Source: an uncultured Pelagibacteraceae bacterium
GTDB taxonomy: Bacteria > Pseudomonadota > Alphaproteobacteria > Pelagibacterales > Pelagibacteraceae
Assembly: GCA_902629285.1 (NCBI GenBank)
Contig: CACOQN010000004.1
Span: 1 to 64,000 of the forward strand
Length of the DNA stretch: 64,000 nucleotides
Direction of reading: 5' to 3'
Program-made: the position numbers and the translations under genes
Notes under the pieces: model-generated
Told to the model about the DNA's origin: nothing
The model's input: the letters and a program-made list of their open reading frames with translations, nothing else
Database searches by the model: none
Shown: positions 13,269 to 21,615 of the stretch, piece after piece
Numbering within the stretch: position 1 is the stretch's first letter
How the letters are laid out: each line of letters opens with the position of its first letter

Positions 13269-15786
13269 TCCTTCAGAATTTAATTTGATATTTAAATACG
13301 CTTTAAAAGACTTAAGCAGAAATTATAATAAAATTTCTAGTATCATTATTACACTATTTATAAGTCTTTTTATCTTAAGTGCTATTTTCACAATTGAAGA
13401 TAGTCTTAAAAAAGAACTTAATGATAATGCCAAAGCACTTTTAGGTGGAGATTTAGAAATTGATTACAATCGTAATCAAGGAAATTTAGATCTAGTTAAC
13501 AAAGTAAAAGAATTTGCAACTGTTTCTCAAATGATTGAGTTCAGCACTATGCTTTCAACTACTGGAAGAGAAAAAAATAAATCATTATTTACTAGAATTA
13601 AAACTGTAGATGAAAAATATCCTTTATATGGAAATGTTGTCTATGAGCCAATTGGTGCTTATGAAAGAATGCAAAAAGAACCTAACACTATCCTTGTCAA
13701 TGAAAGTTTGTCAAAAACCCTAAATATTAAAATTAATGAAATAGTAAAAGTTCAAGATCAAAATTTTACAATAATTGGAATTATTAAATCTGTACCAGAT
13801 GTAAGTGGATTTGTTGCATTTGGCGATTGGGCTTTGGCAGGAAAACAAACTTTAGAAATTTTAAAACTTAACGGAATTGGAAGTTTTTTAAACTATGAAT
13901 ACAAAGTAAAGTTTAATGAAAATGATAAGACTGAAGAAATCGAAAAACGAATTGAAGAAATCTTTAAAGACGATCAAAAAGTAAAACTTAGATATCCTGA
14001 AAATTCTGCAAGTGGAATAAAGAGAATTATTAATAATTTTTCACAATTTTTGTCACTTGTTTCTATTAGTGCAATGTTAATAGCAGGTATTGGAATAGCA
14101 AATACTTTGCTTTCTTTTATTAATCAAAACAACATGTCGATAGCTGTTAGAAAGGCAGTTGGCTTTTATTCAGGCAATATTAAAACACTATATTACCTTC
14201 AGTTATTTATACTTTTATTTATCATCACTGTTATAGCTTATGGATCAAGTTTTTTAATTGTACCAATAGCAGATAAATATTTATCTGATGGATTAGGATT
14301 AAATGTTTATCCGGTATTTTCATTACTCAATTTTTTAAAAATATTTTTAGTAGGTTTATTGGTTCTTGTAATTTTTTCTATTCCAACAATCAGTTCTATT
14401 GATCAAGTAAAAGCGTCTAATTTATTTAGAAACGTATTTCAAAACCTTCAATTTTATTATTCCAAGAGATCAGTTGTTCTAAGCTTTGTTTTATTATCTA
14501 TCTTAATTTTGATATTCACGGTTGGATCTGAACAACCTTCTTATAGCTTGGGTTACTTTGCTGCTTTTTTTGTGTGTTTAATTGTATTTTTCTTACTTTC
14601 GAAATTAATCATTTTTTTCCTAAAAAAATTCAAATCTAGTTCAATAATTTCTTTAAAAGTTTCAATTAAAAATATTACCCAAACAAAAAGTATAACTCCC
14701 ATTACAGTTATGTCTCTTGGCTTAGGAGTTACTTTGTTATTAACATTAGCTTTAGTTGGTACAAATTTTCAAAGAGAAATAGCTAAATCTATTCCTGATA
14801 TAGCACCTGATTATTTCTTTGTCGGTATTCAAAAAGGAGAAAGAGAGAAATTTGAACAGGGAATTTTAAATATGGATCCAAATGCATCTATCGAAATTGT
14901 ACCAATGGTATCCTCTGGAATTGTAAAAATTAATGGTGTAGATCCCAACACTTATATTAAACCAGATAATGATAGTTACTGGGTAATTGGTAGTGAACGA
15001 AGATCTTCATGGGTAGAAAATGTACCTGAAGACAATCCAATTTTAGAGGGTGAATGGTGGGATTTATCAAACCCTAATCAACTTCAAATATCTCTTGATG
15101 CAAAAGTTGCTAAAGATTTTAACATCAAGTTAGGTGATATTTTTACTTTAAATGTTTATGGGCGTGAAATTGAAGGAAAAGTAATTAATTTCAGAGAAGT
15201 GGATTATCGAGATTTAAGCATCAACTTTGCAATGTTATTTAATCCTCAATTTGCAAAAAACATACCTCATGAATATTTAGCTACTGCAAAATTTAATTCA
15301 AATAAATTTGATGAAACTGAAATGCTTGAAATCATGCCAAGTTTATCAATGATAAAAATTTCAGATTATTTATCTAAAGTTACAGCTGTTTTAAATAAAG
15401 TATTTATTGCAGTTACCTTAATCTCTGCAGTTACTATTGTTATAGGGTTAATCGTAATTTCAAGTGCAATTATGGTTCAAGGGAAAGTAAAAGAATATCA
15501 AAATTTAGTCTTTAAAATTTTAGGTTTTTCAAAAAAACAAATTGTTTTTTCATCTTTAATTGAATTCATCATTATTTTTAAATCTGTAATTTTAATTGCA
15601 ATATTTTTTGCAGTGATTGGTTCAAAATTTATTATGGAAAATATTTTTGAGCTAGTTTGGATGTTTGACTTTAAGGTTTTAATTTATTTAGGATTTTCAA
15701 TTGGCTTCGTTACTTTAATTTTAATATTGCTAACAAACTTTAAATATTTAAATCCTAAAGTTTATCCTCTATTGAGAAATCAATAA
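13252..15786 (+). CDS. FtsX-like ABC permease (YbbP-like)
   Basis: 844 aa, multiple TM segments, FtsX-like domains; overlaps the upstream ATPase gene. Confidence 0.85.
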   Translation: MEKLNNPSEFNLIFKYALKDLSRNYNKISSIIITLFISLFILSAIFTIEDSLKKELNDNAKALLGGDLEIDYNRNQGNLDLVNKVKEFATVSQMIEFSTMLSTTGREKNKSLFTRIKTVDEKYPLYGNVVYEPIGAYERMQKEPNTILVNESLSKTLNIKINEIVKVQDQNFTIIGIIKSVPDVSGFVAFGDWALAGKQTLEILKLNGIGSFLNYEYKVKFNENDKTEEIEKRIEEIFKDDQKVKLRYPENSASGIKRIINNFSQFLSLVSISAMLIAGIGIANTLLSFINQNNMSIAVRKAVGFYSGNIKTLYYLQLFILLFIITVIAYGSSFLIVPIADKYLSDGLGLNVYPVFSLLNFLKIFLVGLLVLVIFSIPTISSIDQVKASNLFRNVFQNLQFYYSKRSVVLSFVLLSILILIFTVGSEQPSYSLGYFAAFFVCLIVFFLLSKLIIFFLKKFKSSSIISLKVSIKNITQTKSITPITVMSLGLGVTLLLTLALVGTNFQREIAKSIPDIAPDYFFVGIQKGEREKFEQGILNMDPNASIEIVPMVSSGIVKINGVDPNTYIKPDNDSYWVIGSERRSSWVENVPEDNPILEGEWWDLSNPNQLQISLDAKVAKDFNIKLGDIFTLNVYGREIEGKVINFREVDYRDLSINFAMLFNPQFAKNIPHEYLATAKFNSNKFDETEMLEIMPSLSMIKISDYLSKVTAVLNKVFIAVTLISAVTIVIGLIVISSAIMVQGKVKEYQNLVFKILGFSKKQIVFSSLIEFIIIFKSVILIAIFFAVIGSKFIMENIFELVWMFDFKVLIYLGFSIGFVTLILILLTNFKYLNPKVYPLLRNQ

Positions 15787-18319: not shown

Positions 18320-20014
18320 TTAATTATTATCGTTAACATACACAGACACTCCTCTTGTATTAATATCTACATCAAATTTCTTATGTAATGGCGGAAATGC
18401 TCTTTGAGAACAATCTAACCTGTCACACGTTCTACAAGATACTCCAATTGGAATTTCAGTTTTTTTATCTGAAATATCAAGGTTTTCTGTATATACAAAC
18501 TCTTTAGCATATTTAGCTTCACATCCAAGACCAATAGACAAAATACTTTTTGATTGACCATACCTGCCAACACCTTTTTCAACAGTTCTGGCAATACAGA
18601 CATATTTTTCACCATTTGTCATTTTACTTACAGCAGCTTGAATAACGCCAGGTCTTGTAAACGCAGAATAAACATTCCATCTAGGACATGCACCTCCATA
18701 ACGGGGAATTTCAATTCCAGATAAAGAAAATCTCTTCGATATGTTGCCTGCAATGTCTGTTCTTAGCATATGGAATGGTATTCCTGGTAATTTAGGATCT
18801 TGTAAACACGTAACTCTATGAGCTACCTGTTCAAATGATGTAGCAAATGTATTCTGCAAAAGCTCTAAATCATATTTTAATTTTTTACATTCATTGTGAA
18901 AAAGTTTATATGGCATCAAAATTGCTGCTCCACAATAATTCAAAAGTGCTACTTGAGTTAATCGCTTTGATTCATCTGATGGAAATTTAAAATTTGATAA
19001 ATATTCTGCAATTATATCTATTGCTCCTTCTTGTGCAATTTGGGCGGCTGCATGTAATTTTTTTGTTTCTAATGAATTGTAATCGCTCAAAAGGAGTTCC
19101 TTTTTTGTCTCACTAAATATCTTTGAAAATGGTTTTCCTTCTTCTGGGATTACATCTTTTACAATTATCGAATGTTCTTTTTTTAAATAATCACAAAGAG
19201 CAATGTATCTTGTTCTATTATTTTTCTGAACTTTATCAAATATACTATTTGCAAATTCTTCTAATCTTGGAAAATAATTTTTATTTTCTTGAAGAAAATC
19301 TGAAATTACCTCTCCAGGAAAAGCTGCCTTCCTACTATCAATTATTTTACCTGAAATATTTTCAACCTTATTAACTATTTCGTGATCTTTTTGTTTAAAG
19401 TTATCTCCTAATTTTATTAATGCTCTTGCTATTTTTGGGTTTGTGCTGACAAGGTCTTTTACTTCAGGTCCAAGTATATCTAAATCTTCGAATAACTGGT
19501 CATCTAAAAGCTCAGAAATATTATTTTCTAAGTTTATATCGCTTTTACTTGTTAAGTCTGATAAATCTACTCTTAATTCTTTGCTTATTTTGATTAATAA
19601 ATCCCCATCTATTTTTCGTTTTCCTCCTTCTATTAAATTTAAATATGTAGGAGATATACCTATTTGTTCTGAAAATTTATTTGCCTGTAAACCTAATTGT
19701 CTTCTAAACGCCTTTATTTTTGGTCCAATTTTTAAATCTAATTTATTTAAATTTTTACCTTTAGAAAATTTTGATATTGCTTTTTTTGAATTATTTAAAT
19801 CAATAAATTTATCCGTTTTTAAGTCTGATATCTCGATTCTTAGTTCTTGACAAATTTTTAATAATAAATCAGCATCAATTTTTCGTTTTCCACTTTCAAT
19901 TAGATTTAAATAACTTGGAGAAATTTGTAATTGCTCAGCTAACTTATTAGCTTGAAGCCCAAGTTGTTTTCTAAACTTTTTTATATTTGCTCCGATATGG
20001 CTATTAATCTGCAT
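18320..20014 (-). CDS. XRE-family regulator with ImmA/IrrE and DUF2083-like C-terminal regions (ScfR/RamB type), duplicated N-terminal HTH
   Basis: Two HTH copies ...RQLGLQANK..ISP.YLNLIE.GKRKID.DLL.KI..ELR...SDL; C-terminal CRTCDRLDCSQRAFPPLHK. Divergent from isocitrate lyase. Confidence 0.88.
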   Translation of the reverse strand: MQINSHIGANIKKFRKQLGLQANKLAEQLQISPSYLNLIESGKRKIDADLLLKICQELRIEISDLKTDKFIDLNNSKKAISKFSKGKNLNKLDLKIGPKIKAFRRQLGLQANKFSEQIGISPTYLNLIEGGKRKIDGDLLIKISKELRVDLSDLTSKSDINLENNISELLDDQLFEDLDILGPEVKDLVSTNPKIARALIKLGDNFKQKDHEIVNKVENISGKIIDSRKAAFPGEVISDFLQENKNYFPRLEEFANSIFDKVQKNNRTRYIALCDYLKKEHSIIVKDVIPEEGKPFSKIFSETKKELLLSDYNSLETKKLHAAAQIAQEGAIDIIAEYLSNFKFPSDESKRLTQVALLNYCGAAILMPYKLFHNECKKLKYDLELLQNTFATSFEQVAHRVTCLQDPKLPGIPFHMLRTDIAGNISKRFSLSGIEIPRYGGACPRWNVYSAFTRPGVIQAAVSKMTNGEKYVCIARTVEKGVGRYGQSKSILSIGLGCEAKYAKEFVYTENLDISDKKTEIPIGVSCRTCDRLDCSQRAFPPLHKKFDVDINTRGVSVYVNDNN

Positions 20015-20025
20015 AATTTAAAAAA

Positions 20026-20116
20026 TTTGTAAATTTTGTAAATTTTAATTTACAAAAAATTAACTAAATTTACAAGTAAAATTGAGGTTTTTTGTAGATT
20101 TTGTAAATCTTGTAAA
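20026..20116. promoter_or_regulatory. Cluster of TTTGTAAA half-sites, probable operator array for the divergent regulator and aceA
   Basis: TTTGTAAA at 20026 and 20035; TTTACAAA at 20049; TTTACAAG at 20069; TTTGTAGA at 20091; TTTGTAAA at 20100; CTTGTAAA at 20109. Confidence 0.7.
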
Positions 20117-20129
20117 TTATAAAATAAAC

Positions 20130-20291
20130 ATGAATACAAAACTTAAAAATACAGAAAATGAAGCTCAAATCATCAAAAAAGAAGATTTAGATCATCATAA
20201 TAGTAGAGGTATCTATATGAGAGATGATCATTGTGATTGGGGATCTAGTGGAATGAATGATCTTATCGAAAAGTCTAACGATAATAATTAA
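20130..20291 (+). CDS. Small acidic protein (53 aa), unknown, upstream of aceA
   Basis: MNTKLKNTENEAQIIKKEDLDHHNSRGIYMRDDHCDWGSSGMNDLIEKSNDNN; ATG at 20130 preferred over the TTG at 20082, which lies within the repeat array. Confidence 0.6.
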   Translation: MNTKLKNTENEAQIIKKEDLDHHNSRGIYMRDDHCDWGSSGMNDLIEKSNDNN

Positions 20292-20340: not shown

Positions 20341-21615
20341 ATGAGTGCTGAAAATATCTCATACGATTTAAAAAGATTTGCAGGAATAAAAAGAGACTAT
20401 ACACCTGAAGAAGTAGAGAGATTAAAAGGTTCTATAAAAATAGAACACTCTTTATGTAAATTACAATCACAAAAATTATGGAAATTATTAAATACTGAAA
20501 ATTATATAAATACTCTTGGATCATTATCGGGCAATCAGGCTGTTCAACATGCTAAAGCTGGTTTAAAAGCAATATATTTAAGTGGATGGCAAGTTGCAGC
20601 TGACGCAAATACAGCTGGAGAAATGTATCCTGATCAATCATTATATCCTTATGATAGTGCACCTAAATTAGTTGAAACAATGAATAACTCGTTAGTTAGA
20701 GCTGATCAAATTCAACACATGGAAATTCAAGATGGTGAAATGAATAAAGAAAATAAAGTTGACTATATGCTACCAATAATTGCAGATGGTGAAGCAGGTT
20801 TTGGTGGACCACTAAATGTCTTTGAATTAACTAAAAAATTTATTCGAGCAGGAGCTGCTGGTGTTCATTTTGAAGATCAATTAGCAAGTGAGAAGAAATG
20901 TGGCCACATGGGAGGCAAAGTTTTAGTACCAACTGGAACAATGGTGAAAAATTTAAAAGCTGCAAGACTAGCTGCTGATATAGCTGAAGTTCCATTAATA
21001 ATACTAGCAAGAACAGATGCTAATGCAGCAAAATTGATTACAAATGATTTTGATAAAAATGACAAACCATTTCTAACTGGTGAAAGATCTCCAGAGGGTT
21101 TCTTTTATGTTAAAGATGGAATTGAACAAGCAATATCTAGAGGTTTAGCTTATGCACCCTATGCAGACTTAATTTGGTGTGAAACAGCTACTCCTAATCT
21201 AGCTGAAGCTAAAAAATTCGCTGATGCTATACACGAAAAATTCCCTGGAAAACTTTTAGCTTATAATTGTTCCCCTTCTTTCAATTGGAAAAAACATTTA
21301 AACGATGACGAAATAGCATCTTTTCAGCAAGAGATTGCAAAAATGGGTTATAAATTTCAATTTATTACGCTAGCAGGATTTCACACTCAAAATATTGCTA
21401 TTTTTGAACTTGCCGAAAAATATAAAAAAGAAGGTATGGCAGCATATTCTAGAATTCAACAACAAGAATTTTCTAGAGAAAAAGACGGTTATACAAGTGT
21501 TAAACACCAAAGGGAAGTTGGTACATCATATTTTGATGCTGTATCAAACACTATTAGCAGTGGACAAAGTTCTACCACTGCAATGTCAGGTTCAACAGAG
21601 TCAGAACAATTTTAA
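20341..21615 (+). CDS. aceA: Isocitrate lyase
   Basis: [61 protein letters not shown]. Confidence 0.97.

Follow-up and report, generated by a model that had tools for sequence, protein, structure and literature searches.

The 91-bp array of repeats ahead of the isocitrate lyase gene aceA in a SAR11 genome is most probably (with a probability of about 0.85, judging from the DNA sequence) the operator region of the divergently encoded ScfR-family regulator. Through this regulator, which carries the residues expected of a metabolite and iron-sulfur sensor, the array very probably controls the SAR11 glyoxylate shunt. The sites themselves, their conservation, specificity and rigid spacing, the co-occurrence of array, regulator and aceA, and the sensor residues are shown by the sequences; regulator binding, the sign of control and the ligand are inferred. 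The locus lies in the window, that is, the whole stretch of 64,000 nucleotides analysed, from a Pelagibacter-like SAR11 genome of 1.31 Mb whose relatives with names are almost all Pelagibacteraceae, and comprises the following features:

18320..20014, minus strand: ScfR-family regulator of 564 aa, with two HTH_3 domains, an IrrE/M78-like domain and a C-terminal ScfRs domain
19553..19717, minus strand: HTH2, about residues 100-154 of the regulator, orthologous to the sole HTH of other SAR11 regulators
19820..19984, minus strand: HTH1, residues 11-65, an extra domain absent in most orthologues
20026..20042, plus strand: putative operator pair 1 (S1 and S2), TTTGTAAA-t-TTTGTAAA, 12 bp from the regulator start codon
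20049..20056, minus strand: S3, an inverted single site, paired with S2 in an 8-6-8 inverted repeat
20069..20076, minus strand: S4, an inverted single site, CTTGTAAA on the minus strand
20095..20100, plus strand: -35-like element TAGATT (conservation of columns T95, G97 and A98 1.0, 0.93 and 0.88)
20100..20116, plus strand: putative operator pair 2 (S6 and S7), TTTGTAAA-t-CTTGTAAA, filling the 17-bp spacer of the predicted promoter
20118..20123, plus strand: predicted -10 element TATAAA (first four columns conserved at 0.97-1.0)
20130..20291, plus strand: small ORF of 53 aa with the core GIYxRDDHCDWGSSGM, between the operator and aceA
20341..21615, plus strand: aceA, isocitrate lyase (NCBIfam NF011645, 727.6 bits, cutoff 562)

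The half-site array and its conservation

The original prediction had counted seven copies of a TTTGTAAA-type 8-mer, and all seven were found where it placed them: exact copies at 20026, 20035 and 20100 on the plus strand and at 20049 on the minus strand, and copies with one mismatch at 20069 (minus), 20091 (plus) and 20109 (plus). As it also described, the array fills nearly the whole region between the regulator and the 53-aa ORF, taking up 91 of the 115 bp that separate the regulator ATG (20014) from the ATG of the small ORF (20130). The gaps are 1 bp between S1 and S2, 6 bp between S2 and S3 and 12 bp between S3 and S4.

The density of the motif against shuffled sequence, on which the prediction was staked, gave a divided result. 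Window-wide the TTTGTAAA-type motif is not enriched (359 matches versus 336 +/- 22 in shuffles), but its clustering is exceptional: at least five non-overlapping matches per 91 bp occur only at the location of the array within the 64 kb. The 115-bp gap holds 8 matches, one of them a trivial TTTTTAAA, and among 20,000 dinucleotide shuffles of this gap 8 matches were never reached, 7 matches were reached by 3 shuffles and 4 exact copies by none. The AT-richness of the window and the lack of overall enrichment would suit repeats that arose by chance between genes in AT-rich DNA; this reading is rejected, given a cluster that occurs only once in the 64 kb and exceeds the shuffles, and an array that is conserved and specific genome-wide. 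Between positions 15000 and 25000 no Rfam family reached its gathering threshold in a search for structured RNAs and riboswitches, and a phage collection gave no DNA match.

We compared a first set of 56 loci and 40 more, and aligned 75 Pelagibacter loci. The alignment upstream of aceA, a check named in the original prediction, bears it out for six sites with rigid spacing. With at most one mismatch, S1 is present in 67/75 loci, S2 in 75/75, S3, S4 and S7 in 72/75 each and S6 in 73/75; the S2-S3 distance of 14 bp and the S3-S4 distance of 20 bp are each kept in 75/75. Site columns have a mean identity of 0.958 over these loci versus 0.703 for the other columns between the sites. The 8-mer at 20091, by contrast with the six, carries at least 3 mismatches in 38/75 loci (31/55 of those whose regulator has a single HTH and 7/20 of those with two), and was rejected as a seventh operator copy; it is explained by the -35-like TAGATT. 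The 9-bp spacings of the predicted pair and triplet are exact, but the triplet is a pair preceded by this promoter-like element.

The array is seen in Pelagibacter loci, and most other SAR11 genera have a modified version of it. In the latter (L057-L076, upstream positions 1-20) the pair on the regulator side reads TTTACAAA, the reverse of the Pelagibacter TTTGTAAA, and the pair on the aceA side keeps the Pelagibacter orientation; the reversal counts against the operator reading. Two loci from other alphaproteobacterial families (L159 and L175) have a TTTAC pair on the regulator side and a distal GTAAA pair, both of 9-bp period, a two-pair architecture outside SAR11. The pair-to-pair distance is 73-74 bp in most Pelagibacter and, read off the sequences, about 81-90 bp in other genera, and with a distance that varies between genera we make no claim that the pairs loop together in helical phase.

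Across 99 Pelagibacter genomes, exact copies of the 17-mer TTTGTAAANTTTGTAAA number 88, versus 3 of the reversed control, and nearly all exact matches fall by position at the regulator locus (the assignment leaves out G435, G436 and G438), the clear exceptions off the locus being three (G201, G302 and G384), which equals the control rate. In the source genome the copy at 20026 is the sole exact one, 7 of the 8 one-mismatch 17-mers outside the array lie inside ORFs, and a search for a wider regulon with up to 3 mismatches gave no excess over the control. Since the 17-mer is specific to the locus and few near-matches in the source genome lie outside ORFs, the operator and its regulator look local to the aceA locus as far as this 17-mer can report, a search that could miss regulon sites with another spacing.

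Regulator and aceA also tend to be present or absent together. Among the 18 genomes at least 90% complete in which no regulator was found, 16 have no true aceA and show only weak partial matches of 36-42%, which are probably PrpB-like proteins; in the other two aceA lies at a contig edge, and the array is visible in one of them. In one further genome (G152, 86% complete) aceA (L133, C4:141402-142667) stands behind an unrelated gene, with no detectable regulator, array or small ORF. This would make it a possible natural control, a candidate unregulated aceA, with the caveat that the genome is incomplete.

The regulator and its known relatives

The regulator belongs to the ScfR family: PF09856 (ScfRs) matches it with E 3.7e-59 and 199.5 bits (cutoff 24), and PF01381, in two stretches, and PF06114 are both above their cutoffs. 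It scores 386.6 against a cutoff of 700 for the RamB equivalog NF038139, and it is therefore named ScfR-family and not RamB. The structures of Mycobacterium tuberculosis PrpR (6cyj, 6cyy and 6cz6) align to it with E of about 1e-60. The residues by which PrpR contacts CoA, K217, R338, K347 and K410 (PMC6765138), are identical in the SAR11 protein (K294, R418, K427 and K489), and the ligands of the [4Fe-4S] cluster (Cys363 and C-X2-C-X4-C) align to C443, C527, C530 and C535, four cysteines that are invariant in 45 SAR11 sequences. The ligand-selecting Phe155 of PrpR is replaced by Gly234, also invariant in the 45 sequences, and R159 by Ser; the regulator has no bulky aromatic at PrpR position 155, the mark of a propionyl-CoA sensor. 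Because of these two replacements, the sensed acyl group is not transferable from PrpR. An AlphaFold model of the 564 aa (mean pLDDT 58.7) shows both HTHs as helical domains, the rest being too poor.

The original prediction had noted a resemblance to RamB-type operators, and the comparison with footprinted sites strengthens it. In M. tuberculosis the DNA footprinted with PrpR reads TTTGCAAA-n-TTTGCgAA, a pair of 8-mers separated by a single base, and these 17 bp recur upstream of icl1 (PMC3420887; PMC6765138). The SAR11 pair, as read from its letters, is a form of the PrpR/RamB operator TTTGCAAA-n-TTTGCAAA in which a central C has become T. With PrpR, an MccR-type ScfR, it shares the 8-1-8 layout of 17 bp and 9-bp period found at prpR-prpDC and icl1, the divergent arrangement of regulator and target with sites upstream of isocitrate lyase, and the [4Fe-4S] cysteines and CoA-contacting residues. 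It differs in its core (TTTGTAAA instead of TTTGCAAA), in having two pairs and two inverted singles where PrpR has one pair, in the residues at PrpR positions 155 and 159 and, in part of Pelagibacter, in the two HTHs.

Paracoccus denitrificans RamB (class 2, ms-icl) is likewise an alphaproteobacterial ScfR, divergent from glyoxylate-shunt genes, with two nearly identical boxes and with [4Fe-4S] and CoA-ester sensing. It is a tetramer that goes over to dimers on methylmalyl-CoA, carries a [4Fe-4S] cluster and acts as an activator as well as a repressor; a distance of 18 bp separates its boxes, which lie 82 bp upstream of ms (PMC10370305). Unlike in SAR11, its ms and icl stand together and no small ORF is described. 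Two near-identical boxes near an acyl-CoA gene, as expected of an ScfR, were found in SAR11 as two 8-1-8 pairs at 75 loci; the 18-bp spacer of the class 2 two-box site was not found, the SAR11 gaps being 1, 6 and 12 bp. RamB of Corynebacterium and Mycobacterium (NF038139) is of the same kind in that it is an acetate/glyoxylate regulator with a TTTGC(A/G)AA-type site, but the SAR11 protein is far under that equivalog cutoff. SAR11 also has a glycine riboswitch on glcB (malate synthase), the other gene of the glyoxylate shunt (PMC5069720); unlike the array, it is RNA-based, and it lies at a separate locus and is unrelated to the array.

The duplicated HTH and the 9-bp period

The original prediction had explained the tandem sites by the regulator, suggesting that half-sites repeated every 9 bp would suit a protein with two HTH domains per chain; on such a model each HTH would take one half-site. 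The regulator of the window does carry two HTHs, and their recognition-helix segments are near-identical (SPSYLNLIE and SPTYLNLIE), but the comparison with other genomes makes such an adaptation very improbable. Among the 75 Pelagibacter loci 20 encode a double-HTH and 55 a single-HTH regulator, and array and spacings are alike in both; single-HTH orthologue matches begin at about residue 87 of the regulator. The sampled SAR11 genera outside the Pelagibacter group are all single-HTH, and most have tandem 9-bp pairs. M. tuberculosis PrpR shows this layout with a single HTH. Finally, for 26 single-HTH homologues of 33-45% identity in other alphaproteobacterial families, the spacing with the strongest enrichment in the upstream DNA is TTTAC-N4-TTTAC, of period 9: 8/26 have it exactly and 13/26 with one mismatch, versus 0.00 and 0.68 in shuffles. 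On this sequence evidence the tandem layout with its 9-bp period belongs to the family and is not a consequence of the doubled HTH.

Because the outgroup genera are single-HTH and the array is shared by both forms, the HTH duplication is read as derived and the operator as older. The tandem duplication is patchy on the tree, present in some Pelagibacter lineages only, with the operator unchanged; the double-HTH label needs three changes on the tree, and one origin is also compatible. A secondary effect of the double HTH could be another stoichiometry on the same pairs. The DNA of the HTH1-HTH2 linker, compared with the old operator and start codon, has a best register of 0.55 identity (about 0.3-0.49 elsewhere), in an unexpected register, and may resemble the old upstream region.

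Promoters, the small ORF and the sign of control

On the aceA side, a conserved T-x-G-A sits 17 bp before a nearly invariant TATAA at the 75 Pelagibacter loci. TAGATT matches a -35 at 3 of 6 positions, and if T-x-G-A is read as a weak -35, its 17-bp spacer would coincide with the pair 20100-20116 to within one base. The predicted -10 ends 6 nt ahead of the small ORF ATG, a proximity which suggests a leaderless transcript of the small ORF.

The small ORF is taken to encode a real protein because it is under purifying selection, with dN/dS of about 0.07 over the 19 codons at the C-terminal end and 0.23 over the remainder. In Pelagibacter the core reads (R/K)DDHCDWGSSGM with hardly any variation; the other SAR11 genera have EDDQDWGS(A/S)G in its place. 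A search of 239 other alphaproteobacterial genomes did not turn up the ORF, and it is matched by no Pfam or NCBIfam model. A combined proposal, in which one double-HTH chain can occupy a whole 17-bp pair with the operator unchanged and, in addition, the co-transcribed small protein is an unrecognised part of the shunt switch, we regard as unlikely.

On the regulator side, the S4 hexamer TTGTAA may double as the -35 of the regulator promoter. It is conceivable, and only somewhat doubtful, that S3 and S4 are together the core promoter of the regulator (TTGTAA as -35, with a -10 over S3) and not operator sites: 17 bp separate the minus-strand TTGTAA from a hexamer at S3, TAAATT or TAAAAA, and the distance between the hexamers is invariant in 75/75 loci. 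Both sites nevertheless match the operator 8-mer with at most one mismatch in 72/75 loci, and this promoter does not stand out in a consensus scan.

In the mechanism we propose, the binding unit would be the 17-bp tandem pair TTTGTAAA-n-TTTGTAAA, and the regulator, as a tetramer with [4Fe-4S] and a CoA thioester, would sit on both pairs. Pair 2 would lie inside the spacer of the smORF-aceA promoter, between the weak -35 and the -10, and pair 1, abutting the regulator start codon, would serve autoregulation. Both promoters are proposed to be held down because of these positions, so that in the simplest state the regulator would repress aceA and its own gene, and a change of acyl-CoA ligand or the loss of the iron-sulfur cluster would alter the oligomer and relieve or reverse the repression. 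Repression is the main sign that we favour, with modest confidence.

The same operator could instead be chiefly an activator site, at which the acyl-CoA-bound regulator recruits polymerase to aceA as Paracoccus RamB does for ms-icl. RamB acts mostly as an activator, and icl expression on acetate depends on it (PMC10370305), PrpR activates prpDC and icl1 (PMC3420887), and a -35 that matches at 3 of 6 positions would be in keeping with activation. Pair 2, however, lies inside the -35/-10 spacer, a position that is usually repressive, the Paracoccus boxes lie instead 82 bp upstream of ms, and RamB also represses on succinate (PMC10370305). Since RamB does both, activation is kept as a serious rival, though we think it the less probable sign.

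The gene order around aceA in G176, which we take to be P. ubique HTCC1062, is azlC-sfuA-sfuB-sfuC-aceA-regulator and matches the gene and tag order of HTCC1062. In G176 (L268, 3199-8682), unlike in the window, the sfuABC iron transporter genes follow immediately after aceA in the same orientation, and transcription of aceA could run on into sfu. In a P. ubique microarray under iron limitation aceA rose 1.58x (P=0.091) and the divergent transcription regulator, SAR11_1242, rose 1.60x (P=0.054) (PMC2864753). The joint rise of aceA and regulator is an independent hint at the proposed mechanism, with changes that are small and only marginally significant. It is not explained by read-through from sfu, because sfu is downstream of aceA and the regulator is divergent.

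The type of operator is already known, and the doubled HTH and the conserved, SAR11-only small protein are the additions. We found no open-access paper joining SAR11 with RamB at the aceA locus, an absence that argues only weakly for novelty. SAR11 bacteria, very abundant in the ocean, possess few regulators; aceA is the entry to the glyoxylate shunt, on which iron and carbon supply have an influence in the ocean. A sequence-defined operator with an iron-sulfur and CoA sensor offers a concrete hypothesis for how the shunt is set in SAR11, beside the glcB riboswitch, and makes the regulator's target directly testable. For the family, a 9-bp tandem operator need not imply two DNA-binding domains per chain.
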